NCBI GenBank assembly: GCA_947164995.1
Contig: CAMUYU010000004.1
Span: 1-53,982 of the forward strand
Length of the DNA: 53,982 nucleotides
Source of the DNA: an uncultured Clostridia bacterium
GTDB lineage: Bacteria; Bacillota; Clostridia; TANB77; UBA1234
Direction: 5' to 3'
A model generated the notes under the pieces. The model was given only the letters and a program-made list of their open reading frames with translations. It had not been told where the DNA came from and did no database searches. Below are positions 20,987 through 44,802 of this stretch, one piece after another; positions within the stretch are counted from its first letter, which is position 1, and each line of letters starts with the position of its first letter. A program made the position numbers and the translations under genes.

Positions 20987-22639
20987 TTAATATTTTCCTT
21001 TAGGATAAGGAGCATTATAGAGATATCTATAATAATCTCTTACCATTCTGTCTGTGGAGCACTCTTCATAAGCGGTATAAATAGAACTAAACATCATATC
21101 AGTCCAAAGATCTTTGTCGTTATAACTAGGCAAAACTTTTTCTTCAAGAACTCTATAAAGATATTGTGCATCTACACTCTTGTCGTGAGATTTAGTTTCT
21201 CCAATAATCCAACCATTTACGGCATATCTGCAACTCTTGTACCACCAGCCATCAGCAGTAGAAAGGTTAAGTACACCATTACATGCTGCCTTCATACCTG
21301 ATGTTGAGCAAGCTTCAAGAGGAATTTCAGGGTTACCGAGCCAAACATCGCAACCCTTGGTCATAAGTCCAGCAATTTCTACATCATAGTTCTGAAGGAA
21401 AACAACATTTTGAGGATATCTTTGTGTCATCTCAAAAAGTCGCATCAAAATAGCTTTACTATTAAAATCTTTAGGATGAGTTTTTCCAGAGAAAATGATT
21501 TGGAAATTGTGTTCTCTAATGAGTCTTTCGAATCTTGCAATATCTTCAAAAATAAGATCTGCTCTCTTGTACTGAATAACACGTCTTGCAAAGCCTACAA
21601 TAATAGAATCTTTATTAAGCGTTACACCATTTCTTTTTTGAACTTCTTCAATAAGTTTTTCTTTATTCTTATCATGGTAAAATCTAAGCATCTGCGTGTT
21701 ACCAAGTTCGTATGCTTTTCGAATATTTTTATCTTGCCAATACTCAATATCTACACCATTATCGATGTACATGATAGGGCATGCACCAGAAACATGGCTC
21801 CAAAGCTCATGAGACGTAGACTGGTGACGAAGTGCAACTGCGTTTGCAATCTTAGAAAGTCTAAGAGCTGCAGTCGTAGAACCAAACATGGTTCCTGTAT
21901 CATCTCCACCAATTGCTTTAAGTTCGTCATAACTTAAGTCAAGGTTTGCACCAAGTTTCATAATCATGTCGATAGGACGACTCTTATTTCCTGCCCAAAT
22001 AGGTGTATGAGTAGTGAAAACAGTCTTTTCTTTAACCATCTGCCAAGCGGTGTTAAAATCATGTCCATTCTTTTTGTAATCAGAAATAAGCTTAAGGGCA
22101 GCAAAAACACCATGGCCTTCGTTTAAATGAAGAACATCAAAAGGATAATTAAGCTTTTCACAAATACCTATTGAAGCAACTCCAAGAAGTACTTCTTGCA
22201 TAAGTCTTTGAGCTTCACCATCATATCCACCTACACCATTTTCACCATAAAGGTTATTAGTGATGTAAGCAAAATCTCCGTTTTCGGGAAGAAAAGAATC
22301 TACACCATAGCAATTGGAAAGAGTCTTGTGTTTCCAAATCTTAACTTTAAGTTGTCTTTGCAAAAGTGGAACATCTAATACTATACCAGTATATAAGTAG
22401 TCATCTTCAAACCTTTGTTCAGGATATTCATCGATGACTCCATCTTTTGTAACGGTTTGACGCACATAACCATTCTTATAGATAGGGGTAACAGCCAAAA
22501 AAGATGCTCCCAACCGATTCATGGTTCGAGTTGTGTCCCCATAAAGAGCCCCAAGTCCACCAGAATAGTTTCTACCACCTGCCGTTGTCTCCATGCAAAC
22601 GGAAAGCACCCGTTTGCTATTCAACAGTGAAGAACTCAC
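20987..22639 (-). CDS. glgP: Alpha-glucan (glycogen) phosphorylase, short form (GT35)
   Basis: A 550-residue PLP-dependent phosphorylase that releases glucose 1-phosphate from alpha-1,4-glucan. N-terminal blocks are ETTAGGRNYSGGLGALYGDT and LHLNEGHGVFAAL. The PLP-lysine site is TSGMKAACNGVLNLSTADGWW. It is shorter than the 854-residue paralog at 35411 and lacks that protein's N-terminal DUF3417-like part. I chose GTG at 22639, seven bases after AAAGGAGG; the TTG at 22657 is upstream of that site. Hand counts of four 60-base lines (21301-21360, 21781-21840, 22501-22620) give about 48-52% GC, against about 25-30% in the neighbouring GT4 and long phosphorylase genes. This suggests transfer from another genome. 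Confidence 0.9.
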   Translation of the reverse strand: MSSSLLNSKRVLSVCMETTAGGRNYSGGLGALYGDTTRTMNRLGASFLAVTPIYKNGYVRQTVTKDGVIDEYPEQRFEDDYLYTGIVLDVPLLQRQLKVKIWKHKTLSNCYGVDSFLPENGDFAYITNNLYGENGVGGYDGEAQRLMQEVLLGVASIGICEKLNYPFDVLHLNEGHGVFAALKLISDYKKNGHDFNTAWQMVKEKTVFTTHTPIWAGNKSRPIDMIMKLGANLDLSYDELKAIGGDDTGTMFGSTTAALRLSKIANAVALRHQSTSHELWSHVSGACPIMYIDNGVDIEYWQDKNIRKAYELGNTQMLRFYHDKNKEKLIEEVQKRNGVTLNKDSIIVGFARRVIQYKRADLIFEDIARFERLIREHNFQIIFSGKTHPKDFNSKAILMRLFEMTQRYPQNVVFLQNYDVEIAGLMTKGCDVWLGNPEIPLEACSTSGMKAACNGVLNLSTADGWWYKSCRYAVNGWIIGETKSHDKSVDAQYLYRVLEEKVLPSYNDKDLWTDMMFSSIYTAYEECSTDRMVRDYYRYLYNAPYPKGKY

Positions 22640-22716
22640 GTTGAATCCTCCTTTCAAAATATAAAGTGTCTATATAAATTAGCACACCTTGATGTTAAAG
22701 TCAACACCACTAAATG

Positions 22717-25276: not shown

Positions 25277-26860
25277 ATGCCTAAGGGTTACTTAAATTTT
25301 GTATTGCATGCCCATCTTCCTTATGTACGCCACCCAGAAAGCGAACTATATATGGAAGAACGTTGGTTATTCGAAGCAATATCAGAAACTTATATTCCTT
25401 TAATTAAATACTTTCAAAAACTAATTGATGAAAATATTCCTTTTAAAATAACAATGAATATTTCTGCACCACTTATTACAATGTTACAAGATGACGTTCT
25501 TCAGCATCGTTCTCTTCAATATTTAGTAGAAAGACTTTGGTTATCTCACAAAGAAATTAGAAGAACTAAAGGTCATAATGATATGAACAACTTAGCTCAT
25601 TTCTATTATGAAAGATATAAAGAACAATACACAATTTTTAAAAGGCAATACAATTGCAATCTAATTCCAGCATTTAAAAAATTTCAAGATATGGGAGTTC
25701 TAGAAATTGTTGCATGTCCTGCAACTCATGGTTTTTTGCCTCTTCTTAACGTTACTCCAAATGCCTCTCGTGCACAAATTGCAAACGGCATTAAAGTTTA
25801 TGAAGAAGCTTTTGGAAGACATCCAAATGGCATGTGGCTTTCAGAATGCGCATATATTCCAGAATTAGAAGATGCATTAAAAGAATTTGGAATTAGATAT
25901 ATATTTTTAGAAACACATGGTATTACAAATGCAGACCCTACTCCTATTTATGGAACATTAAGTCCTATTATTTCACCAAATGGAATTGCAGCTTTTGGAA
26001 GAGACCTAAAAAGTAGTGAACAAGTTTGGAGTTCTATCACAGGTTATCCTGGTCATCCAAACTATAGAGAATTTTATAAAGACATTGGATTTGAATCTGA
26101 TTGGGAATATATAAAACCATTTGTTGCAAAATCTGGACATAGAGTTGATACTGGTCTTAAATATCATAGAATCACTGGTAAAACAAACAACAAAGATTTT
26201 TATCATCCTGATTGGGCAATGGAAATTGCTGAACAGCAAGCAGACCACTTCATGTATTCTAGAGTAGACCAAATAAATCAATCAGCTCCAAACATGATTA
26301 TTCCACCAATAATTACATCACAATATGATGCAGAATTATATGGACACTGGTGGTTTGAAGGTCCTTATTGGTTGTATGTATTATTTAAAAAGATTCATTA
26401 TAATCAAGATACTTTTGAATTGATTACACCTTCTGAATACTTATCTAAATACCCTACTATTCAGCAATCATCACCAGCTATTTCAACTTGGGGTGCACAT
26501 GGTTATTCAGAAGTTTGGATTAATCCTGGTAACGACTATATGTACAAACATCTTCATGCGGCAGGAGAAAGAATGACCTATTTAGCAAGATGTATTACAC
26601 AACCTACTGAGCTAGAAAGAAAAGCACTTAATCAATGTGCAAGAGAATTATTACTTGCACAAAGCAGTGACTGGCCATTTATTGTTACTATGAATACCAT
26701 GGTAGAATATGCTCACAAGCGATTAAAAGACCATATAGGGCGTTTTAATGCACTTGCAGACATGATAGATAAGCATGAAATAAATGAAGACTATTTAGAA
26801 AATGTTATGTATAAAGATAAGATTTTTCCAAATATAGACTATTCAATTTATGCAAAATAA
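25277..26860 (+). CDS. GH57 1,4-alpha-glucan branching enzyme
   Basis: A 527-residue glycoside hydrolase family 57 enzyme of the branching-enzyme type, which makes alpha-1,6 branches in glucan. The N-terminal motif FVLHAHLPYVRHPE opens the barrel. MWLSECAYIPELEDAL carries the catalytic Glu. YGHWWFEGPYWL and a C-terminal DUF1957-like helical part (SSDWPFIVTMNTMVEYA) follow. The length matches characterised archaeal-type enzymes of about 530 residues. It is cytoplasmic. CGGAGG precedes the ATG. It works downstream of the GT4 synthase and together with the two phosphorylases. Confidence 0.92.
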   Translation: MPKGYLNFVLHAHLPYVRHPESELYMEERWLFEAISETYIPLIKYFQKLIDENIPFKITMNISAPLITMLQDDVLQHRSLQYLVERLWLSHKEIRRTKGHNDMNNLAHFYYERYKEQYTIFKRQYNCNLIPAFKKFQDMGVLEIVACPATHGFLPLLNVTPNASRAQIANGIKVYEEAFGRHPNGMWLSECAYIPELEDALKEFGIRYIFLETHGITNADPTPIYGTLSPIISPNGIAAFGRDLKSSEQVWSSITGYPGHPNYREFYKDIGFESDWEYIKPFVAKSGHRVDTGLKYHRITGKTNNKDFYHPDWAMEIAEQQADHFMYSRVDQINQSAPNMIIPPIITSQYDAELYGHWWFEGPYWLYVLFKKIHYNQDTFELITPSEYLSKYPTIQQSSPAISTWGAHGYSEVWINPGNDYMYKHLHAAGERMTYLARCITQPTELERKALNQCARELLLAQSSDWPFIVTMNTMVEYAHKRLKDHIGRFNALADMIDKHEINEDYLENVMYKDKIFPNIDYSIYAK

Positions 26861-26897: not shown

Positions 26898-28394
26898 TTA
26901 TTTTTTAAGCTCTGATAACCTTTGCATCATGGCTGCAGTTTCTGCTCTTGTTGCAGTTCCTGTTGGAGCAATAGTATCTTTTGTTCTACCATTCATGACG
27001 CCAGAACCGATTGCCCATTGAATTGCATCTTTTGCATATTCTGCAACTTCGTTTTTATCTTCAAATGATGATAGGTCTTTCTTTTTACTTATAGAAATCT
27101 TTTGAGTTTTTGCAAACCTGTATAATATAGTAACTAAATCTTGTCTGGTGATGCTAACTTCTGGGTCAAATTTATTATCTCCTACTCCGTTAACAATTCC
27201 CTTTTCAGATGCCCAAGCTATAGGTGATGAATAATACATATTTTCATCAACATCTGCAAACTTTGATTTTTTAGTAGTCTTAGCCTCCGCATATCTATAT
27301 AATACCGTAACTAACATTCCTCTTGTTAATGAACCATTTGGTGCAAATTCATCATCTGTAACTCCCTTAAATAAGCCTTTGTCCACTACATAGTTAACAT
27401 TATCAAAAAACCAATCATCTGTGTCAACATCTCTAAAGTTACTTACTGCTTTTATCTTCCATTGAGCAATAAATGGTCCACCCGCTATTCTCTTATTGGG
27501 AGAAATATCGATTGTATCACCTACTTTAAATATTTTATCATTGGCATCTTTCCAACCAATAAATGTATATCCTTCTCTAGTTTGTGGGAGTACTTTGTAT
27601 TTTCTATAATAACTACTTGTATATCTTCCATTTGGAGTTTCTCCATCATTATTGTAGTTAAATTCCAAAATAACAATTCCATTTGCAATTGCACCATTGG
27701 TTGGAGTGTAACTACTTACTAATTCAAATACTTGGTCAAAGTTTTCTGTATCATAATAAGTAACATCAACTGTTCCATTTTTTGTAATATTTCTAATTAT
27801 ATAAGAACCATCTTCTTCTTGATATAGCACTTTATTATCATACATAACCTCAGCAAGATAATCAGATTTTATAGTAAATTCTAAATTTTCTCCAGCTTCT
27901 ACTTGAACTTTGCCATTTGGTGATACTTCACCCCATTTTTGAGAATCAATAGTAATAGTATATTTTGTTCCAGCCATTATCCATAGTGCTGTAATGCTTT
28001 TTGGAAGACTTTTCCCATCTAAATAATCTCCGACTTCTGCAACACTTCCATCTGAATTCATAAGCCAACCATTGCAAACTTTTTTACCATCAAAATCCCA
28101 ACCTCTAAAAATGTAACCATCTCTAGTAGGAATTGATAACCTATATAAGTAATCAGTTTTTGCAGTGTAATACTTAACACCGCTTCCATCACCCATATTA
28201 ACTTCAATAGTCTTTTCTATAGCTTTTCCCTCAATATGAAGATGTGTATCTACTTCAAATAATTCTTCGATCGATGCTATTCTAGTATCCTTTTCAGGGA
28301 CAGAAATTAAATCAGCATATACACAAGAAAAACATCCAAGCAAAAATACTATGCCCAACAAAAGTAATACAAATTTTTGATTACTCTTTGTCAC
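26898..28394 (-). CDS. Secreted protein with InlB-type repeats and three SLH domains
   Basis: A 498-residue surface protein. The signal peptide ends near LLGCFSCVYA. Two Listeria-Bacteroides (InlB B-repeat) units follow: YRLSIPTRDGYIFRGWDFDG and YKVLPQTREGYTFIGWKDAN. A beta segment lies between them. Three C-terminal SLH repeats begin FRDVDTDDWFFDNVN, FADVDENMYYSSPIA and FEDKNEVAEYAKDAI; each has the TRAE/TRGM/TRQD-type motif. SLH domains bind pyruvylated secondary wall polymer, which the csaB gene in this window would supply. I chose GTG at 28394, eight bases after AAGGAG. That site overlaps the stop of the giant gene upstream, so the two are translationally coupled. Confidence 0.88.
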   Translation of the reverse strand: MTKSNQKFVLLLLGIVFLLGCFSCVYADLISVPEKDTRIASIEELFEVDTHLHIEGKAIEKTIEVNMGDGSGVKYYTAKTDYLYRLSIPTRDGYIFRGWDFDGKKVCNGWLMNSDGSVAEVGDYLDGKSLPKSITALWIMAGTKYTITIDSQKWGEVSPNGKVQVEAGENLEFTIKSDYLAEVMYDNKVLYQEEDGSYIIRNITKNGTVDVTYYDTENFDQVFELVSSYTPTNGAIANGIVILEFNYNNDGETPNGRYTSSYYRKYKVLPQTREGYTFIGWKDANDKIFKVGDTIDISPNKRIAGGPFIAQWKIKAVSNFRDVDTDDWFFDNVNYVVDKGLFKGVTDDEFAPNGSLTRGMLVTVLYRYAEAKTTKKSKFADVDENMYYSSPIAWASEKGIVNGVGDNKFDPEVSITRQDLVTILYRFAKTQKISISKKKDLSSFEDKNEVAEYAKDAIQWAIGSGVMNGRTKDTIAPTGTATRAETAAMMQRLSELKK

Positions 28395-28406
28395 AATAAT
28401 CACTCC

Positions 28407-31400
28407 TTATTTTCCTTTTTCAAAGTCTTTAATAATGCCTTGTGCATTTCTCTTAAGTTTTCCATCTAAAGCATTTACTTTGTCTTTAAGTGAAGTAAGT
28501 TGCTCAGGTGTTAAAATCTTAAGTATTGCTTCAATTTCAACTCTTTGTTCTGTAGAAAGATTATCTCTGCCAAAGATATTTAATGCCTGTTTCATAAGTA
28601 GCATGTCAACACCAGCAATTACTTCTGCGCTATAGCTTGGTTTTGCATTTGGATCTGTAAAGAAATTATCTGCAGATAATGTTCTTTCTTTATAGTAATT
28701 TTCAAGCATTAATTTTTCATATTGCAATAAAGTTTTAAGATTCAATAACTCACTTGGATCTTTTAGTTTCTTATCTTGTAGTTTAATTTCAATTATCTCA
28801 AGCTCTGCTAAATTCTTACCTCTATCGCTAATATACCTTGCCTTTTCCATATCTTCTATAGTTTTATCTATGAAGTAATCTGTAAGTGTAATAGCTTTTC
28901 TTTGTTGTAGCTTTCCTAATAGTTTATCAGATAACTCTGAAGAAGTAATACTTTCAAAAATCTTAAGTAGGTTTGCACCTGTTCTATCTCTTGTAATAAT
29001 TCTATTAAGACCTGCTTTAATAGTTTCTTTTTCATCAACCATTAATTTTTCAACTTCAGAATAATCAAAAGAAGTACTTCCTGATTTATAAGCTTCTCCA
29101 GATTGTCTTATGATAGTAATGATTTGGTCATTAATATCATTTAATTTATTTATTGTCTTCTTTTCACCATTAGTAAGTTGCATTGCTCTAGCAAGACCTT
29201 TTAAGAATTCATCTGTAAATTCAACTGGTTCTTCTGTGTCTTCTTCAGCAACTTCTGCATTTTCTGCTTCCTTACTTTCTTGTTCTTCCATAGCAGCTTT
29301 TTCTTCTTCTGTCATAGTATTAGCAAATGGATTAACAAGTTCCTTTTCTTTCTCTTCTTCTTCACCTTGAAGAACTGCATTAGAGAATATTACTTTTACT
29401 TCATTTTCATTATCGTTTTCAGAAATAGTAATCTCATAAGGTTCTGTTTTTTGATATCTCCAAATTTCGTTTGCATTATAAATAACTTTATTTGCAATCC
29501 TTGGTGAGAACTTAGAGCCAATTTGAGCTTCTTGGCTTTCATTAGCTTTAAGAATATTTCCTTGTTCATCAACATACTTAATAGTAACTCTAGCTTTCTC
29601 TTCTTGATAAATAACAGTTACAATATTGTTGATACTTCCAACTGTAAGATTTAGAGGTTTAACATCAAGCATATGCCATTTTCTATTTTCTTGGTCAAAT
29701 ACAATTTCTTCAGGTGAAGCATTGTATTCAGCGCCTACTTGAAGTGAAACTTTTTCTTCTTCTTTAATAACAATGCCATCCATGTTTACAAATCTTATAA
29801 CAACATCTGCTTTAGCAACATCATAAGAATATGTAAGAACATTTTCATTTGAATTTTCAAAGACAACTACTTCATCTCTCTTAGCATTTACTAATTCCCA
29901 CTCATTTCCCTTTTTATCTTTAATGAATTGGGCAGGCTCTGGATTATATTTTGAGCCAACTTGTAAATGAACTTTTTCTTCATCTCTTAACAAGTTACCA
30001 TCTAAATCTACACAACGAATAATCATATCACTATTAATTGGTTCAAACTTAGCAGTAAATTCGTTTGGAGTCTTACTAGAACCAATAGCTAAGTCTTTTA
30101 TCTTAAGCTCTTCTGGTGATACAGACTTAAATCTAAATAGTTTTCCTTCTTTATCATTAAAGTCTTTTGATATTTCCGGTGTATATATACTTCCTAATTG
30201 ACCTTTTAATTTTTTTGGTTCTGAGATTTCGTTGTCCCACAAATCTACGTAATTTACAAGCACTTCAATAGTTAATGGAATATAGATTAAAGTAATAATG
30301 TTTTCACTGTCTTCCTCACTAACTTCAATAGACTCTCTATCTCTTTCATGATATTCCCAAACACATTCATTATCGTCAGTAATAATAGAATCATATTGTG
30401 GTATAAAGTGACCACCAATTTGACAAAGCTGTGTATATGGCTCTTTAATTTCATCTCCTTTATCATTTACATACTTGTATGTAACAGTAGCTTTTTCTTC
30501 TTCATATGTAAGAAGAACATTGTTTTGATCAACATCTTGTGTAATAACAAAGTCTTTTTGATTCTTTGGATTGTATGCCCATTTGTTTCCTAAAGAATCT
30601 GTAATCTTTGGTGGAACATCTTCACTGAATACTGTACCAATTTGAATCTTTCTAGTTTCTTCAGTTTTGATTTCTTTACCAACACTATCAACATATTTAA
30701 CATGAACTTCAATTAGTTTTGGCTTATATTTAACATATGTTACATTCTTTTCTTCGTCTGCAGAAATTATAATTGGATCAATTTTATACTTAGATACGAA
30801 AATTGAGTTATCTGTACCAAACGCTTGTAACCAGTGTCTACCTTGATCATCAATTACAGTTTCTTTAATCTTAACTTGATATGTGCTACCAACTTGATGT
30901 TGTGATATTTCTGGTTCTACTAGTTCTTCATCTGTTTCAAAATGAACACATTTATCATATACATTAACCATATATTCATCATATGAAACTATAAAATTAT
31001 TTTTATCTTTTTCAGGCGAAATAACTACGTCAAGAGTATTTGATTCTGATACTTTCCAATAAAGTTTCTTAGCATCTTTTAATACTTCCTCAGGAGCTAA
31101 ATTATATTTGCTTCCAATTTGAAGTTTAACTTGTCTATTATTTGCTAGTAGTTCACCTTTATTAGTAGCAAAAGTAACAACAACATCTATCATTTCTTTA
31201 TCATAGAAATAACTAATAATGTTCTCACTTTCATTTTCTTGAATCTTAATTGTATCTCTTGAATTCTTCTTAAAGATCCAGTATTTGCCTTCTTCATCTA
31301 TGATTCTTTCTTTTTGTTTAGCTGAATAAATAGTTCCAACTTGAATTTCTTCTACTTCATCAGTAACAATCTTGTTGTGTTCTGAATCAAAATAAGAATT

Positions 31401-34400
31401 TGTGACATTGCTTAACAAAGGAACGTATTTAATATTAACCTTATTAGGTCCTTCTACGATCTTTAATGTTTCTACATTAATCTTAGAATATTCCCAAACT
31501 TTGCCAATATTATCTGTAACTTTATCAAGAATTACAGGATTAAATGATACACCAACTTGAACTTGTTCAGATTTACTAGATGCTAATTCATTACCATTAT
31601 CATCAATGTACCTTGTAACAACTTCTGTCATCAATGGAACATAGTCTGAAATAACCATATTCTTGGTATCATCTTCGTCAACTTCCAAAGAATGTCTTGT
31701 CATTCTAAGAAGCTTCCATCCCATACCATTTTCTTCAATTAGTTTTTCATATTCTGCAATAGCAATTACATTACCTATTTGCTCTTGCTTAATGACATCT
31801 TCATGAACCAATTGACCAGCTTCATTTTCATATCTTAATGTAACATTAACCATATCTGGTTCATACTTTAGCATAATAATGTTTTCTTGATCATTCTCTT
31901 TGGCAACGATGCTCATTGCTGGCTCGCCACAATATGTCCATCTTAGTTTATTCTTATCAAATATTTTTTGTTGAATATTTGGAACAAATACACCACCAAG
32001 TTTTGTAGTAATCATTATATCATTGATAATTGGTGAACCATCACTGATATTAATACATTTAACAGTAACACGAGCTTTAATTTCATCATATATTAAAGTA
32101 AATCTACTATTTTCTCTAACAAATAATCTTTCAGGCTCAGTTCTTGCAATCATAAGTCGTTCGCCATTATCTGCTGTAACTCTTTCATAAAGTAAAGGAC
32201 TATATTCACTACCAATTTGTCCTTCAACAATTAAATCTTGTTTAATAGTCATTCCGTGGATGTTTCTAAATGATAGTGTAATGTTAACCATTCTCTTTTC
32301 GTATTGAACAATGAATGTATTTTCTTCAATGTGTTTACTTGTTCTAAACGATCTAGCATTAGAAGGAGAAACAATCCATCCTCTTTCATCATCAGATGTA
32401 ATTGATGCAATATAATCTGGTGAAACAAGACTACCTGCTTGAATTCTCATTTGCTTATTAGGTATTAATTCGATACCTTCATCATTAACATACTTAAATG
32501 TTGCCGTAGTGATTAAAGGCTCATATTGATATGTTATTCTGTTTTGAACTTCACTTCTAGAAATCAATAATGACTTTTTCTTATCAATACAAGTCCAAAC
32601 AAGTCCATTACTATCTTCAATTTCACTAATAGTTGCTGGAGTATAAGTTGTACCGATTTGTGCTTCTTCTATAATATCATCTTTAATTCTAGAACCTTGA
32701 TCATTAAGCATAGAAACGATAATTCTGCTTACAACTTTTTCGTATGAAACTATACAAATGTTTTGTGTTTCATCTCTTGAAACTGTAATTTGTTGTCTAT
32801 CAATTCTAGAAAATTCCCAACACTTGCCATAAATATCGGTATAATCTCTTTCAAATTTTGGCGCAAATTGTTTACCAATTTGAACAAAATCAACAACGTC
32901 ATCTTTAATTTTTATACCTTCTTCGTTAATAAACGAAGTAACAACTTTAGCTTTCTTTTCATCGTAGAATAATTCAACTAAGTTTAACTCGTTTTCAACT
33001 ACTGAAATAACACTCTTTGAATCTGTACCAAACTCCCATACAAGTCCATTATTATCAATAATCTCCAAAGGTGGGTCAGCAGCAAAATCTTTTGTAGCAA
33101 TTGCTGATATTTTTTCTTGTGGTTTTAATTCAATACCTGCACGAGTCTTATATGAAATAAATACATCAGTTTTAATAACATCATAAATCAAAGTAATAAC
33201 GTTAGTTGACTCAACATCTGAAATAGCAAGTCTTGCAGGATTGCTTTGATATAAACTCCACTCTACGCCTTGAGTATCAACAAATTTATTTGCTTCAACC
33301 AAATCAAAATTTTCACCAACTTGCATATTTTTAATAACAGGCGGATGAATTTCTTGGCCTTGTTTATTGATGTAGTTAATTCTAACTCTAGCAATTCTTT
33401 TAACGTATCTAACTTCAACCTCATTTTGAGTATTATCAGCTGAAACTTGTATGCTTGGCATTTGATTAGATTCAGTAATCCAATCTCTACCTTGTCTATC
33501 ACTAATAATTGGTATCATTTCTGGAGTATAAATACTTCCAACAACAACATCTCTTACAACATTTTCCTTAAGTGTTTCTCCATCTGAATTTAAATATTTA
33601 ACAACAACATATTTTTCATTAGGATCACGAGGTCTTGAAACAGATGTATTATTAATAGGAGCCATACCAATTTCACCAAATGAAGTCTCTCCATCGCCTC
33701 TTGCAAGTTCAATGGCAGTGCCATTGTACATTTCAACGTCTCTTCCTATGCAAGCAAGCTCTGGAAAATAAAACACAACTTCAACACTTGGAACTGGAAG
33801 CATATCTGTTCCTGAAGCATCCATATCTTTGTATATATATCCCATTAATTGAGGAATAGAACGATTATCTATGATTGTTTCTCTTTTAATAACTGCAGCA
33901 TTGTAGTTAATATTGAAATCTGCTACAGATTGTTTTCTAATAAAGTTTCCTGCAGCATCAGAATAATTAAGCTTATTACCAATTGTAAGGTAAATACCAC
34001 TTAGTTTTTCAACATATCTAAATTTATAACGACCATTTAGATTATTTTCGATAGCATTGTAAAGAATATTTTCAAATTCTTTTCTGCTTTTCATAACAGT
34101 AAATTTATATCTAAGAGGTTCGATATATTCGTAACTTTCTTGAGTATGTTTCCTTATAAAATCTAAAGGAAGAACGATTAACTCTTTATTAAGTTTTTTT
34201 AGAACAGAAGCAACGTATTGACGAGAAACAGCATATCCAACTTCTGAAGAAAATCTAATACTGCATCTATCAACTTCAGTTTTTAAAGCAGGATCTTCTT
34301 TGTAATCTAGAAGGTCCCTATATGTGTTTTTGTTGTAACGTTCAGAAGCTGTATAAATTGCAAGTTCTTCTTGATTAGCTTCGTTAACAATCCATGCATA

Positions 34401-35180
34401 AGTAGGCTTTGTAAGTGAAAAATCTGCACATTGGTTAACCTCAGATAAACGTAAATATGGGTCATTAGAAATATTACCGATTTTTACGCCTGAACCTTTA
34501 TATTTAACTTCAACTATTTTTTCGACATACTCAATACGATTAATTCTTCTATTGATATATTTATAACGATAATTTGTAATTATTTCCGCAAATTTTTGTG
34601 CATTATCATATAGTTTTAAACGTGGATTTAGATTATTGATAAGAATCATGTCTATGACATATTCCGCCATTAAAGAATAAAGAATATCTTTGGCTTTAAG
34701 ATTTGGCACTCTGCCATTAGAAGTTAAAGCTTGATAGTAGTCATTTGCTTCGTTTTCTCTTTCTTCTCCATAAATCTCCTCGTATGTTCTACCAGCAAAC
34801 CTGTAAGTAGCTTCACGCGATGGCGTATAGCAAAGAATAGCAATATTTGCATCTGCTGTTACACCAATAATACATAGCTTATCTGAAAGACTATAATCGC
34901 AAATCATGATTTGACTTCCGACAACAGAAAGTTTGGCAAAAGTATCTACCTTGCCATCGAATACAAATCTATCAATAAAGTTATATGATATATTAAGATA
35001 AAATCTTGGGATATCTGCATTTGGCTCATCAAATTCTATAACCTCAACCTTTTGCATTAATTCCCCTTCAGTATATTTACTAGCATCTACGGTTACTGGA
35101 AAATCGCGAAGTTTTTGTTCAACAAAACCCGCTCCATATCCGAGTGAGACTAGTTTATTCTTTAGTACACGTTTAATCAT
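28407..35180 (-). CDS. Giant protein with 19 MucBP-like repeats, no visible export signal
   Basis: A 2257-residue protein. Residues 1 to about 520 are a non-repeated domain I do not recognise, rich in Tyr and charged residues. Residues about 521 to 1930 hold 19 divergent repeats of 71-80 residues. Each follows a plan of V-x-V-x-Y-x-N/D-x-x-G near the start, QIGSxYxP in the middle, D-x-x-G-x-x-W, and a final strand ending YE. This resembles MucBP domains of surface proteins. An acidic linker follows (about 1935-1985), then a helical C-terminal domain of about 270 residues (AITLTDYFIDKTIEDMEKA, LNLKTLLQYEKLMLENYYK). I see no signal peptide, membrane helix, LPxTG or SLH domain. It is first in an operon with the SLH gene and has a strong promoter. 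Function and location are unknown. Confidence 0.85.
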   Translation of the reverse strand: MIKRVLKNKLVSLGYGAGFVEQKLRDFPVTVDASKYTEGELMQKVEVIEFDEPNADIPRFYLNISYNFIDRFVFDGKVDTFAKLSVVGSQIMICDYSLSDKLCIIGVTADANIAILCYTPSREATYRFAGRTYEEIYGEERENEANDYYQALTSNGRVPNLKAKDILYSLMAEYVIDMILINNLNPRLKLYDNAQKFAEIITNYRYKYINRRINRIEYVEKIVEVKYKGSGVKIGNISNDPYLRLSEVNQCADFSLTKPTYAWIVNEANQEELAIYTASERYNKNTYRDLLDYKEDPALKTEVDRCSIRFSSEVGYAVSRQYVASVLKKLNKELIVLPLDFIRKHTQESYEYIEPLRYKFTVMKSRKEFENILYNAIENNLNGRYKFRYVEKLSGIYLTIGNKLNYSDAAGNFIRKQSVADFNINYNAAVIKRETIIDNRSIPQLMGYIYKDMDASGTDMLPVPSVEVVFYFPELACIGRDVEMYNGTAIELARGDGETSFGEIGMAPINNTSVSRPRDPNEKYVVVKYLNSDGETLKENVVRDVVVGSIYTPEMIPIISDRQGRDWITESNQMPSIQVSADNTQNEVEVRYVKRIARVRINYINKQGQEIHPPVIKNMQVGENFDLVEANKFVDTQGVEWSLYQSNPARLAISDVESTNVITLIYDVIKTDVFISYKTRAGIELKPQEKISAIATKDFAADPPLEIIDNNGLVWEFGTDSKSVISVVENELNLVELFYDEKKAKVVTSFINEEGIKIKDDVVDFVQIGKQFAPKFERDYTDIYGKCWEFSRIDRQQITVSRDETQNICIVSYEKVVSRIIVSMLNDQGSRIKDDIIEEAQIGTTYTPATISEIEDSNGLVWTCIDKKKSLLISRSEVQNRITYQYEPLITTATFKYVNDEGIELIPNKQMRIQAGSLVSPDYIASITSDDERGWIVSPSNARSFRTSKHIEENTFIVQYEKRMVNITLSFRNIHGMTIKQDLIVEGQIGSEYSPLLYERVTADNGERLMIARTEPERLFVRENSRFTLIYDEIKARVTVKCINISDGSPIINDIMITTKLGGVFVPNIQQKIFDKNKLRWTYCGEPAMSIVAKENDQENIIMLKYEPDMVNVTLRYENEAGQLVHEDVIKQEQIGNVIAIAEYEKLIEENGMGWKLLRMTRHSLEVDEDDTKNMVISDYVPLMTEVVTRYIDDNGNELASSKSEQVQVGVSFNPVILDKVTDNIGKVWEYSKINVETLKIVEGPNKVNIKYVPLLSNVTNSYFDSEHNKIVTDEVEEIQVGTIYSAKQKERIIDEEGKYWIFKKNSRDTIKIQENESENIISYFYDKEMIDVVVTFATNKGELLANNRQVKLQIGSKYNLAPEEVLKDAKKLYWKVSESNTLDVVISPEKDKNNFIVSYDEYMVNVYDKCVHFETDEELVEPEISQHQVGSTYQVKIKETVIDDQGRHWLQAFGTDNSIFVSKYKIDPIIISADEEKNVTYVKYKPKLIEVHVKYVDSVGKEIKTEETRKIQIGTVFSEDVPPKITDSLGNKWAYNPKNQKDFVITQDVDQNNVLLTYEEEKATVTYKYVNDKGDEIKEPYTQLCQIGGHFIPQYDSIITDDNECVWEYHERDRESIEVSEEDSENIITLIYIPLTIEVLVNYVDLWDNEISEPKKLKGQLGSIYTPEISKDFNDKEGKLFRFKSVSPEELKIKDLAIGSSKTPNEFTAKFEPINSDMIIRCVDLDGNLLRDEEKVHLQVGSKYNPEPAQFIKDKKGNEWELVNAKRDEVVVFENSNENVLTYSYDVAKADVVIRFVNMDGIVIKEEEKVSLQVGAEYNASPEEIVFDQENRKWHMLDVKPLNLTVGSINNIVTVIYQEEKARVTIKYVDEQGNILKANESQEAQIGSKFSPRIANKVIYNANEIWRYQKTEPYEITISENDNENEVKVIFSNAVLQGEEEEKEKELVNPFANTMTEEEKAAMEEQESKEAENAEVAEEDTEEPVEFTDEFLKGLARAMQLTNGEKKTINKLNDINDQIITIIRQSGEAYKSGSTSFDYSEVEKLMVDEKETIKAGLNRIITRDRTGANLLKIFESITSSELSDKLLGKLQQRKAITLTDYFIDKTIEDMEKARYISDRGKNLAELEIIEIKLQDKKLKDPSELLNLKTLLQYEKLMLENYYKERTLSADNFFTDPNAKPSYSAEVIAGVDMLLMKQALNIFGRDNLSTEQRVEIEAILKILTPEQLTSLKDKVNALDGKLKRNAQGIIKDFEKGK

Positions 35181-35210: not shown

Positions 35211-35239
35211 ATTATATTAAAATACTACTTTTTTTTCAA
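35211..35239 (-). promoter_or_regulatory. Promoter of the giant repeat protein operon
   Basis: On the minus strand, TTGAAA (35234-35239) and a perfect TATAAT (35211-35216) are spaced by 17 bases, about 30 bases before the ATG. Confidence 0.8.
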
Positions 35240-35410: not shown

Positions 35411-37975
35411 ATGTACGTATTTGGAAAAATTAATGTTAAGCCACAACTACCTGAAAGAATTGCTGGTCTTTATGATTTAGCCAATAACCTATGGTGGTCA
35501 TGGTATACTTATGCATTAAGATTATATGATTATATTAATTCAGATTTATTTAAAAAGGTTAATAAAAACCCTATCAAATTTTTAGCTGAAGTTAATCAAA
35601 AAAGGCTTTTAGAAATCTCTAAAGACGAAGAATTTCTTAAAGAATATGATTTGGTCATGGAAAACTTTAATGGTTATATGTCAGCTTCTGAAACATATTT
35701 TTCAAAAACATATCCCCAATTTAAAGATGCTAAAATAGCATATTTTAGTGCCGAATATGGATTAGATGAAGTATTGCCTATCTATGCTGGTGGTCTTGGA
35801 ATTTTATCAGGCGACCATTGTAAGTCAGCTTCAGACTTAGGTATTCCTTTCTATCCTGTTGGGTTATTATACAAAGATGGTTATTTCAACCAATTAATCA
35901 ATAAAGATGGTTCTGAAACTTTTGAATATTCAAGAGCTGATATGGACGACCTTCCAATACTTCCTGTTAAAAATGAAGATGGCTCAAACTTAACAATTTC
36001 AGTTACTCTTCAAAACAGAATTGTATACTTAAAAGTTTGGAAAATTCATATTGGAAGAATCACTCTTTACTTAATGGATACAGATATTGATACAAACTCT
36101 GAACAAGATAGAGCTATCACTTTAAAGCTTTATGGTGGAAACCAAGAAACGAGAATTCAACAAGAAATAATTCTAGGAATTGGTGGTATGAAGTTGTTAC
36201 AAACTCTTGGCATCAATCCTACAATTTATCACATGAACGAAGGTCACTCTTCATTTGTTGTATTTGAAGTTATTAAAAAACTAATGGCTGAGAAAAACGT
36301 TTCATTTAAGACAGCAAAAGAAATGGCTTCTTCATGCACAATATTTACCACTCATACTCCAGTTCCTGCTGGAAACGATATATTCCCATTAGACTTAATG
36401 GATAGATATTTTGCAAATTATTCAGAAACACTTGGCGTTTCTAGAGCAGACTTTTTAATCATGGGTTCTAGAGATGAAAACCTTCCAGTAAATGGATTTG
36501 ATATGGCTGTTCTAGCACTTAAAGTTGCTGGAAAAAGAAATGGTGTATCAAAACTTCATGGAGATGTTTCAAAAAGATTATTCTCTACTCTATGGCCAAA
36601 CACAGCATTAGAAGAAGTTCCAATAGATTACGTTACAAATGGAGTTCATACATGTACATGGCTTGCTCCTAACTTAAAAGAATTATACAACGCATATATG
36701 CGTCCATTCTGGCAAGAAAAAGTTCATGAAAGAGATATTTGGAACGACATAGACAACATACCAGATGAAGAACTTTGGAAGATTCACCAAGAGCAAAAAA
36801 TGAAATTAATCAAGATGGTTCGTGAAAATATTAGAAATCAAAAAATTAGAAATAACGAATCAATTGATGAAATAAATGAAGTAGACAATCTATTAGATCC
36901 AAAAGCTCTTACAATTGGTTTTGCAAGAAGATTCGCAACCTACAAAAGAGCAGATTTAATTTTTAGAGATATTGAAAAGATTACTCAACTACTTAATAAC
37001 CCTTCTCGTCCAGTTCAAATTATATTTGCAGGAAAACCACATCCTGCAGATCTTCAAGGGCAAGAATTAGTTAAAGAAATTTATGAATTTTCAAAGATGC
37101 CACAATTTAAAAATAAAGTAGTAATTCTAGAAAACTACAACATGTTTGTTTCAAGATATTTAATTAGTGGTGTTGATGTTTGGTTAAATAATCCTAGAAG
37201 ACCTCTTGAAGCATCTGGTACATCTGGTGAAAAGGCTGGTTTAAATGGTGTGCTTAACTTTAGTATACTAGATGGTTGGTGGTTTGAAGGTTACGAACAA
37301 GGTAAAAATGGTTGGGCAATTGGAGATAATACAGAATATACCAACTACGAATTACAAGATAATGCAGATAGCAAGAGTATTTATCAAATACTAGAAAATG
37401 AGATTATGCCTTTATACTACAGTAAGGATCAAAAAGGCATCAACAAAGATTGGATTAGAATGATGAAAAATTCAATCAAATCTGTTGGTGGAAATTATAA
37501 TACAAATAGAATGCTTTGCGATTACTTAGAAAAACTATACATTCCTCAAATTTCTGCAATAGAAGGCGAATATTCAAATGTTGAAAAAGTTGAAGAATTT
37601 AGTAATTGGAAAGACAAAATTAAAAATTGTTGGAAAAAAGTAGAAATTGAAGCTCCTTCAATTTCTGAAGAAGTATCAATGAAAGCTGGAGACGCTCTAG
37701 ATTTAATTTGTCAAGTAGATTTAGGTACTATTTCTCCATCTTCAATCGTATGCGAAGTATTCTATGGAAAGTTCCTAAATGGCGAAAAGCTTTCTGGAAG
37801 TTTTTGTAAAGAAATGGAGCTATCTAATGACTTAGGAAATGGAAAATTTGAATATAAGACCACTATAAACATAGACAATGGTGGAAATTATGGTTATACA
37901 TTCCGCGTACTTCCTCGTCATGAAATGCTTATTAACAAACAAGATATGTCGCTTGTTAAGTGGATAGAAAACTAA
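35411..37975 (+). CDS. glgP: Alpha-glucan phosphorylase, long form (GT35)
   Basis: An 854-residue PLP enzyme that phosphorolyses alpha-1,4-glucan to glucose 1-phosphate. The N-terminal region (PERIAGLYDLANNLWWSWYT) is the DUF3417-like part seen in Thermotoga-type enzymes. YFSAEYGLDEVLPIYAGGLG and YHMNEGHSSFVVFE mark the catalytic domain. The PLP-lysine site is SGTSGEKAGLNGVLNFSI. A C-terminal beta domain of about 100 residues follows. AAGGAGG precedes the ATG. It is followed by pyruvate kinase on the same strand. It is a second, clearly different phosphorylase besides the short one at 20987. Confidence 0.95.
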   Translation: MYVFGKINVKPQLPERIAGLYDLANNLWWSWYTYALRLYDYINSDLFKKVNKNPIKFLAEVNQKRLLEISKDEEFLKEYDLVMENFNGYMSASETYFSKTYPQFKDAKIAYFSAEYGLDEVLPIYAGGLGILSGDHCKSASDLGIPFYPVGLLYKDGYFNQLINKDGSETFEYSRADMDDLPILPVKNEDGSNLTISVTLQNRIVYLKVWKIHIGRITLYLMDTDIDTNSEQDRAITLKLYGGNQETRIQQEIILGIGGMKLLQTLGINPTIYHMNEGHSSFVVFEVIKKLMAEKNVSFKTAKEMASSCTIFTTHTPVPAGNDIFPLDLMDRYFANYSETLGVSRADFLIMGSRDENLPVNGFDMAVLALKVAGKRNGVSKLHGDVSKRLFSTLWPNTALEEVPIDYVTNGVHTCTWLAPNLKELYNAYMRPFWQEKVHERDIWNDIDNIPDEELWKIHQEQKMKLIKMVRENIRNQKIRNNESIDEINEVDNLLDPKALTIGFARRFATYKRADLIFRDIEKITQLLNNPSRPVQIIFAGKPHPADLQGQELVKEIYEFSKMPQFKNKVVILENYNMFVSRYLISGVDVWLNNPRRPLEASGTSGEKAGLNGVLNFSILDGWWFEGYEQGKNGWAIGDNTEYTNYELQDNADSKSIYQILENEIMPLYYSKDQKGINKDWIRMMKNSIKSVGGNYNTNRMLCDYLEKLYIPQISAIEGEYSNVEKVEEFSNWKDKIKNCWKKVEIEAPSISEEVSMKAGDALDLICQVDLGTISPSSIVCEVFYGKFLNGEKLSGSFCKEMELSNDLGNGKFEYKTTINIDNGGNYGYTFRVLPRHEMLINKQDMSLVKWIEN

Positions 37976-39530: not shown

Positions 39531-42500
39531 TTAGTCATTTACTTCGACAATGATTGCTTCTTCAGAATATTCTTTATTTGCTTGATCTTTAAGTACCATT
39601 CTAATTTTGTATGAGCCATTAGCAAGTCCTGTTAAGAAATCTATTTGGATTTGTTCTTCTTCAGCAACATCGTTTAATCTGTATGATTGATGATTTTCCG
39701 AATCTGTTGAATTTACAACACTTAAATTCACATTATCTTTCAAATCTTTTATTTTAATTACATTGCTCAAATTAGATATATATTGATAAATTCCAGTACC
39801 ATTTTGATTTACACCATTCTTTTTCATCAAGCTTATTTCCAAATATGGTTCATCTATTTCGCCTAAATATCCAGTTCCCAGTTTAATTAGATGATTTGAA
39901 GTTTTTGAAATTTGTAAAATGTCATTTTGTATTGCTCCTACATTACTTGTAATATCTGAATAAATAACTCCATAAGGTTCATCACTACAAATAACATTTC
40001 TACGTACTGTTGCAATAGTTGAACCTATTCCATTTACGGTTCTTACTAAGTTGTAATCTACATATGCTTCATCACCATTATTATAAAGAACTATTGGAAG
40101 GCCATTTGTAATAATTGAATATCCTAATTCTGTATAAATAATATTATTCGTATCTGTAATAATTGAAGCACCTGCTACTTTAACACCAGCATCATTAGCT
40201 TGCGTGTAATTTCTGCCAATTCTAACTTTATAAGGATTATTTCCAACTAATTCTAATATTGGCCTTACTCTATATAAATCTGCACCGTTATCTCTACTAT
40301 CTGCAAAAATTGTTGAGTAGTTTGTTGCAGATTCATAAAAATCTTCAGATGTAGTATTTGGAACATATAAAATTGCATTTGGTAAATTTGACAAATCATT
40401 TTCTATTCCTATATTCAAAGCATCATTAGAATTAGATATATCTTTGGTTACAATAATAGAGCGAAGAGAAGAACAATTTAGGAATGTATTATTTCCATAT
40501 AATTTGTCAAATTTATCACCTAATACTATTGTTTTCAAAGAAGAACAATTTCTAAACATCTCAAATAAACTTGTTAAATTCGACGTATCCCATTCAGATA
40601 AATCAATATACTCTAACGAACTACACTCTTTAAATATACAATGTGCCGCTTGAGACTCATTATTTTCATTTGCTAAATGTGTTAAGCTATCAAATTTAAA
40701 ATTACTAACATCTAGTGTATTTACACTAGAGCACTTATAAAACATATTATTCATTACTGTTGCATTTTCAGTATTAAAGCCGCTTACATCAATAGTTTCA
40801 ACATTACAACAATTTGAAAACATATAGGCAAAATTTCTTGCATTATGAGTATCAAAATTTGATACATCCAGAGTTGTTAATGCTTTGCAGCCAGCAAAAA
40901 GAAATTCAAAACTATTTACTTTTTCAGTATTAAAGTTTGAAACATCTAGTACTCTTGCTTTTGTGCAACCATTAAACATGCCATACATATATACCACATT
41001 AGATGTATTGAAGTTCGAAACATCTATATCAATTAGTTCACTACAATTACTAAACATATGATTCATATCAATAACCATTTGAGTATTAAAGCCTGATAAA
41101 TCTAGATACTTAATTGCATTACAAGCACTAAACATAAAAGACATATCTGTGACTTTACTTGTATTAAATCCCGAAACATCTATTGCAGATAAAACATTAC
41201 AAAATGAAAACATTCCAGCCATATTTGTTACATTAGAGGTATCAAAGCCTGATATATCTATTTCCTCTAAAGCAACACAAACTTCAAACATACCTTGCAT
41301 AGAAATTACATTTGATGTATTAAAATTAGTCACATCCAATGACGTTATTTTTTTACAACTATTGAACATATCTCGCATATTAGCTACATTACTTGTATCA
41401 AAATTAGAAACATCCAATTCCTCCAGTAAAATACACGAATTAAACATTGAAGTCATACCATCAACCATAGAAGTGTTAAAAGAAGAAACATTGAGATGCT
41501 CTAGTTTTGAAGCATGATCAAACATATATGACATATCACGAACTTTTGATGTATCAAAACTGGTTAAATCCAAGTTTTTAATTGCTGAATATGAAAACAT
41601 TTTTCTCATAGATGTGACTTTTGAAGTATTAAACGAAGAAGTATCTAGCTCTGTCAAATTATCACAATGTAGAAACATTGAGTTCATATCCGTAATATCA
41701 CTTGACCAAGCATTAGTACCTGTAGTAAATGATGTCAAATTTTTACACATAGAAAATGCATATGAATAAGAATGCAAAACACCCAATTGTTGCACAGAAA
41801 TTATGTAATTAGTAAACGAGTAATAAACTCTATATGTATTACTTTTAGTTACTGTATTTCCGTCTGAATATCCAAACATATGAACATTTCCACTAACTTT
41901 GATTGTATAATTTGTTTCAGTAGTATTTGTATATTTATGTTGCGGAAAATATGCAGAGTTATCAAACATTTCTATTGAACTTCCATCTCCCCAATCAACC
42001 ACAAAAGAATTGGTAGAAGCAGATGATATAGGAAGTTCAACATACGTACCACTTCCGCTTGAACCTTCTACCCAATTTCCAAAGCCAGTTTCACTCTTGT
42101 TTGCTAATCCTCCCGCATTTGCAGGTATCTTCCACTCCATTATAAGGGCATTTGCTTCATCAACACCAACACCAGATTGAAGGTTTCTCGTCACAATCAT
42201 TCCAGTTTCTTCTGTACTATTTACATTCCTCTTCAAAGTATAAGTAACATCTCCAGTAGAATTTGATGTTAATGTAATTGGTAAGCCTGATGTTTCTACA
42301 CTATATCCAAAATCAGTAAATACTGCATTATCACTTTCAGTTTTAAACGAGTATCCTGCTACACTTGCACCTTCATCTTGTGCTAATGTATAAGTAGTTC
42401 CAGCATTTATTGTTTTTGGGTTATCACCAACCACTTCCAAAATAGGTCTTACTCTATAAAGGTCAGAACCATTATCTTGTGTACTAGAAAATACTGAAGC

Positions 42501-44684
42501 ATAATCTGTTGACGCTTCATAGTATCCTTCACTTGTTGTGTCAGGAACGTAAAGGATTACATTTTCAAATCCGCTAAGATTATTATCTGTACTTACAAGT
42601 AGAGCATCTGCTGAGTCAGATATATCACGCAATGTAATAATTGCTTTTATATTACTACATCCAGAAAATTGATATTTTCCATTTAATTTGTCAAAATTTT
42701 CTCCAAGCAAAACTGTTTCAAGATTATTACAACCTTGAAATAATCCATATGGTTTATTAATAATACTTGTATCCCATGTTGAAAGATCTAATGTTTTAAG
42801 GCTCTTACAATCTCTAAACATGAGATCTATATCTATTGGCCAATATCCAATCAATGATATACCACAAGTTGAATGATTTAAACTATCAAACCTAAAACTA
42901 GATACATCAATGCTTTCTAATTTTTCACATCCATCAAACATCGCAACTAAATACTTACATTTTGATGTATCAAAACCGCTTACATCTAAATACTCAATGC
43001 TTCTACAAGAATCAAACATTGAAACCATACTTGTAACTTTTGAAGTATTAAAACCTGAAACATCTAATTGAGACAAGGCATAACAACCATTAAACATTCT
43101 TTCTAAAGTAGTAACATTTGAAGTGTTAAAGTTACTAACATCTATACTAGAAATCCTATAACAATATTCAAACATTAATGCCATTGTTGTTACACTATGT
43201 GTATCAAAAAGTTCCAAACCTTCAATACTTAATAATCCATAACACTCTTCAAACACTCCGTACATATTTGTAACATTTGAAGTATTAAAATTGGTCATTT
43301 TCACACTTGTTAAAAGTTCTGAATGTCTAAACATTTCCTGCATATTAGTTAATTGTGGTGTATCAAAACTACTTAAATCAAGTGTTTTATAGTCAGAATA
43401 ATAAAACATCTTGTACATATTAGTAACTTTTCTAGTATCAAAACTTGATAAATCAATAGTATCCATTCCTTTTGCACCAGAAAACATTTCTCTCATATTA
43501 GTAACATTCGCAGTATTAAAGTGTGTCAAATCTAAATTAGAAACTCTTATGGAATCAAACATACATGACATATCTCTTACTTGCGCTGTATCAAAATTAG
43601 ATACATCTAAAGCAGTCAATGATGAACACATTTCAAACATAGATGACATATTTGTAACTTTTGAAGTATTAAAATTAGAAACATCAATTGACGTAAGCAT
43701 TTTACAGTGATCGAACATATCGCTCATATCTGTAACTTTTGATGTATCGAAATTAGATACATCTAAAGATGTTAATTTTTGACAAGAACCAAACATACTT
43801 CTCATATTTACTACATTATGAGTTTTAAAATTGTTTGAAAAAACAATATTTGTAATTTCGCTACAAAGATAAAACATAGCTTGCATATCAGTAACATTTG
43901 ATGTATCAAAATTTGAAAGATCTAATGATTGTAATTTTCTAGCATTACCAAACATTTCTGTCATTTTAGTAACATTAGAAGTGTTAAAATTACTTAAATC
44001 AAGTGTGGTAATTTTACTACAACCACAAAACATATGTGTCATATCTCTTATATTAGTGGTATCAAACACTGAAACATCAATGCTTTCCAAATTTGCACAA
44101 CTTAAAAACATTGCTTCCATTGATCTCAAATTACTTACGCAACCACTATTATGAGCAGTAAAAGAAATCATATTTTTACAATATCCAAACGAAAGCTTTG
44201 CATAATTTAAAGTTCCTAATTGTAAAACTCTATATAAGTACTCACAGAATGTATAATAGTCCTTATAAGTATTAGTTGCTGTTGGTACCGAACCAGTACC
44301 AAAATAACCAAGCTTATATACCGTTCCACTTACTTTAATTGTATAAATAGTTTCTTCACTATTTGTGTATTCATGACTAGGAAAATTTGTATTTCCATCA
44401 AATTGTGCAACGGCACTCCCATCTCCCCAATCAACAGCATACGAATGAGTATAGCCCGAAGGTATTGGAAGCATTAATGTAGTTCCCGTTCCATCTGTAT
44501 CTGCATTTGCTGGTATTTTAAATTCCATTATTAATGCGTTAGGCTCATCTATAGTTGCTGCGAACGCAGTGTTAATGCAAAATACAGTTCCTAAAATATA
44601 TAATAGCAAACACAATAGTAATATCTTTTTAAGAACACTATTTGTTATTAAATTATCACTAAATTTGTTTAAAACTTTTCCCAT
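39531..44684 (-). CDS. BspA-like DUF285 surface protein with duplicated module
   Basis: A 1717-residue secreted protein. The signal peptide includes ILLLCLLLYILGTVFC and ends near NTAFA. It holds two copies of a module of about 800 residues. Each starts with EPNALIMEFKIPANA or EANALIMEWKIPANA and a VDWGDGS segment. Each continues with many 23-residue DUF285 leucine-rich-type repeats (LDVSNFNTSKVTNM...MF-x-x-C). Each ends with LYRVRPILEVVGDNP or LYRVRPILELVGNNP and a small beta domain. A final region of about 150 residues follows. No LPxTG, SLH or membrane anchor is seen. Relatives are bacterial and protozoal adhesins. I chose the ATG at 44684 ten bases after GGAGG; an earlier ATG at 44711 has no site. 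Confidence 0.9.
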   Translation of the reverse strand: MGKVLNKFSDNLITNSVLKKILLLCLLLYILGTVFCINTAFAATIDEPNALIMEFKIPANADTDGTGTTLMLPIPSGYTHSYAVDWGDGSAVAQFDGNTNFPSHEYTNSEETIYTIKVSGTVYKLGYFGTGSVPTATNTYKDYYTFCEYLYRVLQLGTLNYAKLSFGYCKNMISFTAHNSGCVSNLRSMEAMFLSCANLESIDVSVFDTTNIRDMTHMFCGCSKITTLDLSNFNTSNVTKMTEMFGNARKLQSLDLSNFDTSNVTDMQAMFYLCSEITNIVFSNNFKTHNVVNMRSMFGSCQKLTSLDVSNFDTSKVTDMSDMFDHCKMLTSIDVSNFNTSKVTNMSSMFEMCSSLTALDVSNFDTAQVRDMSCMFDSIRVSNLDLTHFNTANVTNMREMFSGAKGMDTIDLSSFDTRKVTNMYKMFYYSDYKTLDLSSFDTPQLTNMQEMFRHSELLTSVKMTNFNTSNVTNMYGVFEECYGLLSIEGLELFDTHSVTTMALMFEYCYRISSIDVSNFNTSNVTTLERMFNGCYALSQLDVSGFNTSKVTSMVSMFDSCRSIEYLDVSGFDTSKCKYLVAMFDGCEKLESIDVSSFRFDSLNHSTCGISLIGYWPIDIDLMFRDCKSLKTLDLSTWDTSIINKPYGLFQGCNNLETVLLGENFDKLNGKYQFSGCSNIKAIITLRDISDSADALLVSTDNNLSGFENVILYVPDTTSEGYYEASTDYASVFSSTQDNGSDLYRVRPILEVVGDNPKTINAGTTYTLAQDEGASVAGYSFKTESDNAVFTDFGYSVETSGLPITLTSNSTGDVTYTLKRNVNSTEETGMIVTRNLQSGVGVDEANALIMEWKIPANAGGLANKSETGFGNWVEGSSGSGTYVELPISSASTNSFVVDWGDGSSIEMFDNSAYFPQHKYTNTTETNYTIKVSGNVHMFGYSDGNTVTKSNTYRVYYSFTNYIISVQQLGVLHSYSYAFSMCKNLTSFTTGTNAWSSDITDMNSMFLHCDNLTELDTSSFNTSKVTSMRKMFSYSAIKNLDLTSFDTSKVRDMSYMFDHASKLEHLNVSSFNTSMVDGMTSMFNSCILLEELDVSNFDTSNVANMRDMFNSCKKITSLDVTNFNTSNVISMQGMFEVCVALEEIDISGFDTSNVTNMAGMFSFCNVLSAIDVSGFNTSKVTDMSFMFSACNAIKYLDLSGFNTQMVIDMNHMFSNCSELIDIDVSNFNTSNVVYMYGMFNGCTKARVLDVSNFNTEKVNSFEFLFAGCKALTTLDVSNFDTHNARNFAYMFSNCCNVETIDVSGFNTENATVMNNMFYKCSSVNTLDVSNFKFDSLTHLANENNESQAAHCIFKECSSLEYIDLSEWDTSNLTSLFEMFRNCSSLKTIVLGDKFDKLYGNNTFLNCSSLRSIIVTKDISNSNDALNIGIENDLSNLPNAILYVPNTTSEDFYESATNYSTIFADSRDNGADLYRVRPILELVGNNPYKVRIGRNYTQANDAGVKVAGASIITDTNNIIYTELGYSIITNGLPIVLYNNGDEAYVDYNLVRTVNGIGSTIATVRRNVICSDEPYGVIYSDITSNVGAIQNDILQISKTSNHLIKLGTGYLGEIDEPYLEISLMKKNGVNQNGTGIYQYISNLSNVIKIKDLKDNVNLSVVNSTDSENHQSYRLNDVAEEEQIQIDFLTGLANGSYKIRMVLKDQANKEYSEEAIIVEVND

Positions 44685-44802
44685 ACTTAAATTACCTCCA
44701 AAATATGGCATTTAACATTTAGGGGCAAACCTCCCCATTAAGATTTTACCATTTTTAAGAGGTATTTTTTTGAATGTAACAATTCTTTAACATAATTGTT
44801 AA

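Follow-up and report, generated by a model that had tools for sequence, protein, structure and literature searches.

The stretch of DNA analyzed here (hereafter the window) is 53,982 nucleotides of contig CAMUYU010000004.1 (GenBank assembly GCA_947164995.1) from an uncultured Clostridia bacterium, and it carries a gene for a giant protein built largely of MucBP-type repeats. The gene occupies 28407..35180 on the minus strand, and its open reading frame (ORF) of 2257 residues with an ATG start, exactly as an earlier note on this DNA had read it, is supported by Pfam matches and by full-length orthologs in all 13 genomes of the family. The sequence leading into the start reads TGA GGT GAG ATA ATG, with an in-frame stop 12 nt (four codons) before the ATG that is overlapped by a strong ribosome-binding site, GAGGTGA. 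Because this TGA lies directly upstream, a longer start is impossible, and the chance raised by the earlier note that a missed upstream start would add a signal peptide is thereby ruled out; every one of the 13 orthologs likewise has an in-frame stop 5' of its start. A sigma-A-like promoter, TTGAAA-N17-TATAAT, lies at 35211..35239 on the same strand, 30 nt upstream of the ATG, and the ribosome-binding site then follows. Similar elements (TTGAAA, a 16-17 bp spacer, and TATAAT or near variants) precede all 13 orthologs, with shuffle tests giving p<=0.04 for 10 of the 13, though these sequences are related and AT-rich.

Most of the protein is a tandem array at 29382..33605 (minus strand, residues 526-1933), in which a central W, or the residue equivalent to it, sets 19 repeats in register at spacings of 72-84 aa. 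The Pfam MucBP profile (PF06458) matches the giant at 136.7 bits against a cut-off of 23 (E 4.2e-40), with seven stretches passing individually, and the modeled repeats (1, 18 and 19) show the MucBP/beta-grasp fold, so that profile search and predicted fold agree with the MucBP-like character first proposed from the sequence. In VIA-align comparisons, repeats 18-19 match YwfG with Z 10.0, Ruminococcus bromii Amy12 with Z 9.3 and lmo0835 with Z 8.4. The repeat region is 1393-1411 aa long and holds 19 repeats in all 13 orthologs, and 1.9% of the window columns in its alignment are gapped in any species. Repeats of a single protein share a mean identity of 24%, versus 41% for the same repeat across species, which argues that each repeat has a fixed identity, and the cross-species counterparts of a repeat are on average closer to it than any other repeat of its own protein in 212 of 247 cases. 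This orthology of individual repeats indicates that all 19 predate the split of the family and that none has been gained or lost since. Repeat 8 (31860-32063, minus strand) is the most conserved in the ortholog comparison. The initial count of nineteen divergent repeats thus holds, while their length range of 71-80 residues needs correction for one spacing of 84 aa.

The two ends of this array carry a pair of domains that, as far as sequence comparison reaches, are without detectable relatives outside the family. The N-terminal domain (33621..35180, minus strand, residues 1-520) is defined by alignment and by AlphaFold2 models, which were built from 12 sequences. The model of residues 1-600 (mean pLDDT 79.6) is mixed alpha/beta and confident to about residue 370. 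The most conserved stretch, residues ~390-490 (with KQSIADFN, IP.LLGYIY, LPVPSIEV and MYNGT), is modeled least well, which would fit an interface that forms only upon assembly, but a shallow alignment explains it equally well. At the other end, an acidic, disordered linker (29226..29381, minus strand, residues 1934-1985), with 20 D/E versus 4 K/R in 52 residues and a length that varies more among species than that of any other part, leads to a C-terminal domain (28410..29225, minus strand, residues 1986-2257) that is supported by alignment and profile search and predicted to be all-helical (residues 1786-2257, mean pLDDT 83.6; the domain itself mostly 85-95). Both the unrecognized N-terminal 520 residues and the acidic linker with its helical C-terminal domain were thus correctly described at the outset. 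The N-terminal domain has no relatives in Pfam, PHROGs or PDB sequences, and the C-terminal domain has no convincing Pfam match and no relative among solved-structure sequences. Foldseek gave only E>0.03 for the N-terminal domain, and fold searches with the model that contains it matched only its first MucBP repeat and low-score fragments; for both end domains such searches returned nothing convincing, although the whole 600-aa model is a weak test and a known fold is possible.

The giant is restricted to one family of gut Clostridia and is under purifying selection. Among 57 related genomes searched, all those of the same family gave end-to-end matches, and one other genome gave matches to the MucBP repeats alone. 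Within the family the gene is single-copy in 13/13 genomes from four genera, at 34-58% identity to the window protein, and its frame is open in 12; in genome G010 (locus L036, 12311-12690) a break near residue 102 leaves two overlapping ORFs, whether through faulty assembly or a genuine frameshift. Searched with an N-terminal-domain profile, 274 additional genomes of the order yielded nothing further, and samples of the class (one chance match) and the phylum yielded no real match. A candidate distant relative in G438 (21 bits) was set aside as a repetitive, beta-helix-like protein with a short chance match only. Matches to the C-terminal-domain profile are confined to the family, and the 11 loci that the genome_contigs collection yielded all proved to be orthologs already known, in metagenome-assembled genomes labeled Clostridia, Bacillota or Eubacteriales, several from sheep or roe deer gut. 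We also rejected a phage or plasmid origin, as the N-terminal domain is absent from viral contigs, phages and PHROGs, and the C-terminal domain from viral contigs and plasmids.

The ratio of nonsynonymous to synonymous substitution rates (dN/dS) is 0.08 for the closest pair of orthologs (G004-G009) and 0.07 over their repeats; between more distant orthologs synonymous sites approach saturation, and the ratios are rough. These values, well below 1, speak against the giant being a decayed or truncated adhesin that lost its export and anchor parts, an idea that gains some credit from how common MucBP surface proteins are in the order. The orthologs of the 12 other genomes end in the same places as the window protein and none of them is anchored, so the concern that anchored homologs would expose this copy as a truncation is not borne out, and with the frame open nearly throughout the family we regard decay as having almost no chance of being correct.

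A protein made of MucBP repeats would ordinarily be expected at the cell surface, but hydropathy, motif and Pfam checks agree with the earlier note that signal peptide, membrane helix, LPxTG and SLH domain are all missing. The Kyte-Doolittle mean over 19 residues peaks at 1.60 in the protein as a whole and at 0.53 within its first 60 residues. By the same measure, no ortholog of the 13 has a hydrophobic segment in its first 60 residues; none of them has an LPxTG motif or a membrane-like segment, and Pfam finds no SLH or other anchor domain in the window protein. Ordinary ways to the surface do exist in this cell, which has signal peptides and SLH domains as well as a polysaccharide pyruvyl transferase of the SLH-anchoring kind; the giant takes none of these routes. 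Some giant clostridial secreted proteins lack signal peptides, and the giant might reach the surface or the medium in a comparable way, through lysis, a holin-like step or an exporter, to act there as an adhesin or glycan binder. The MucBP identity of its repeats, by Pfam and by fold, and the gut habitat of its relatives would suit such a role. Type VII export is disfavored, however, since WXG100 scores over the cut-off in only 1/13 family genomes, and such a system is thus not generally present. Composition points the same way. A classifier trained on 25 exported and 116 cytosolic proteins from the same loci (cross-validated area under the curve 0.85) gives exported MucBP proteins scores of 0.80-0.996 and 12 of the 13 giants scores below 0.5, with the N- and C-terminal domains lowest and cytosol-like; we take this as supporting evidence, short of proof.

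The surface proteins that the giant might be mistaken for look different. MucBP proteins occur in 53 of 114 genomes of the order, the family's own 13 included, and we compared nine others that are full or nearly full, eight from sister families and one from the family itself (G010); most MucBP proteins of sister families escaped the repeat profile built here and were located from Pfam hits instead. A hydrophobic N-terminal signal is present in eight of the nine, the ninth ORF being truncated at its 5' end, and a C-terminal membrane anchor is likewise present in eight. The one such protein that was measured has 16 repeats with a mean identity of 72% and up to 100%, the pattern of length-variable surface rods of the periscope type, which are exported and built of near-identical repeats (PMC8201768). 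The giant is the opposite on every count. It shares with the periscope proteins SasG, Rib and SHIRT the tandem folded domains and the predicted long rod (SHIRT 7avh, Foldseek E 7.8e-05), but where their repeats are near-identical and vary in number, its own are divergent and fixed at 19 throughout the family. Similarly, it has the PF06458 family and repeat fold of MucBP adhesins such as Lactococcus YwfG and Listeria lmo0835, but neither their signal peptide, wall or membrane anchor and known ligand-binding head nor their repeat pattern. Between the two options originally put forward, export by an unusual route and a cytoplasmic scaffold, the scaffold is therefore favored: surface proteins encoded nearby or in sister families rely on ordinary signal peptides combined with SLH domains or membrane anchors, and an unconventional surface protein seems to us unlikely, if still worth bearing in mind. 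As a separate observation, MucBP proteins reach very large sizes in sister genomes G018, G088 and G093, where their open frames span between 4500 and more than 7400 aa, and G093 has several of them.

The genes around the giant invite a role in glucan metabolism. A GH57 alpha-glucan branching enzyme (25277..26860, plus strand), a conserved neighbor, converges on the giant gene, and an alpha-glucan phosphorylase, glgP (35411..37975, plus strand; PF11897 and PF00343), diverges from it. The phosphorylase adjoins the giant directly or across ytxC, and together with pyk it lies on one side of the giant in 13/13 genomes, while GH57 and DUF4912 lie on the other in 11/13, which answers the question of whether this gene order is conserved in related genomes. 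Three bp downstream of the giant, on the same strand, is a gene for an SLH/List_Bact_rpt surface protein with a signal peptide (26898..28403, minus strand); it is absent from the equivalent place in all relatives, and is thus a recent insertion that may be co-transcribed with the giant.

The giant could in principle organize glucan inside the cell, its rod acting as a tether for glycogen-type granules or else for phosphorylase and branching enzyme, and besides the conserved linkage there is the good match of its repeats to MucBP domains of R. bromii starch enzymes (for Amy12, Z 9.1-9.3 and root-mean-square deviation 2.3-2.4 over 70-71 residues). Amy10 and Amy12 share this glucan context; they are amylases, however, and the giant has no GH domain. 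The Amy proteins are moreover extracellular, and glucan binding by their MucBP domains is putative. DUF4912, GH57 and ytxC sit side by side in sister families, and no gene separates GH57 from ytxC (9/12 loci); it follows that the giant gene was inserted between them in the family ancestor, and the linkage can stem from that single insertion. Though set among polyglucose genes, as first noted, the giant runs against GH57 in all genomes but G010, where the block is inverted, and away from glgP, forming no operon with the glucan genes. Insertion into an older locus, opposed orientation and a promoter of its own mean that the linkage is not strong functional evidence. GH57 was also not found in G007 and G012, each about 89% complete, both of which keep the giant. 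We consider the proposed granule- or glucan-associated role weakly supported and improbable.

Several other features of the region deserve mention. GH57 is split or gapped in some relatives, with two ORFs in G003 and G008 (loci L029 and L034) and two matched pieces in G022 and G026, possibly through assembly errors. The window also has an odd arrangement of glucan enzymes, in which a gene at 20987-22657 (minus strand) combines an N-terminal GT5-like with a C-terminal phosphorylase-like match and adjoins a GT4 glycogen-synthase-like gene. Farther out, 39531-44711 (minus strand) encodes a 1726-aa PARCEL/DUF285 protein with 29 TIGR02167 repeats, whose N-terminus is signal-like and whose 41 cysteines are an unusually high number for a Gram-positive protein that is exported. 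Finally, the 481-aa product of 8040-9485 (minus strand) contains no cysteine and matches nothing in Pfam; its prepilin-like N-terminus (MIKKNNKGYSMIVLIIAIVVILILAGVSI) is of a kind seen repeatedly in sister-family loci.

Sporulation offers another way to account for a missing signal peptide, as coat proteins, which are assembled in the cytosol, carry none. The giant might then be a spore-coat or other mother-cell protein, an idea prompted by ytxC, which adjoins it in nine genomes, and by spoIVA, which lies a few genes off in several. The window's own genus decides against this. SpoIVA and SASP are absent from all four of its genomes (G000-G003) and ytxC is missing from the giant locus, so that sporulation seems to have been lost in this genus but retained in its sister genera; the giant is nevertheless intact there and under selection, and cannot serve sporulation only. 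With a sigma-A-like promoter besides, we reject a spore-coat function as very improbable.

Fixed length, divergent repeats and strong conservation together argue for a structural role in which distance matters. We propose, with a probability of roughly 0.55, that the giant is a cytosolic structural strut of fixed length that joins its N-terminal hub to its helical C-terminal domain. The 520-residue N-terminal domain would act as a docking or assembly hub, and the nineteen MucBP/beta-grasp domains would form a stiff rod, which we estimate at ~75-80 nm if each contributes ~4 nm. Beyond it, the flexible acidic linker would carry the helical C-terminal domain, which may bind a second partner. Such a rod would keep the two ends at a set distance, serving growing cells as a scaffold or ruler, and probably arose in the family ancestor when surface-type MucBP repeats were placed between two new domains with no signal peptide. 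Giant cytosolic scaffolds of other bacteria, such as the HMW proteins of mycoplasma, are likewise large internal proteins with a presumed strut function; the parallel is an analogy only.

Several points weigh against the proposed strut. Its cytosolic location is suggested by the lack of export signals and by composition, and the binding partners at either end are putative. One giant has a classifier score of 0.65, the repeat region alone is ambiguous (0.30-0.71), and the exported training set comprised only 25 proteins. The cysteine content of the giants (0.22-0.86%) has no discriminating power, and we dropped it as a test of location given the cysteine-rich surface protein at 39531-44711. To our knowledge, MucBP domains are otherwise found in exported proteins, and a literature search for cytosolic MucBP proteins found no papers.

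Since MucBP repeats pass for a hallmark of surface adhesins, automatic annotation would label the giant a secreted mucin-binding protein. It is possible, at somewhat less than even odds, that it is instead an intracellular ruler or cytoskeletal strut that defines this lineage of small-genome gut Clostridia, in which adhesin-type MucBP repeats were recruited to the cytosol, with their length under selection and two undescribed domains at their ends. If so, the family would possess a giant internal ruler of a kind rare in bacteria, and would offer two new domain families to study.

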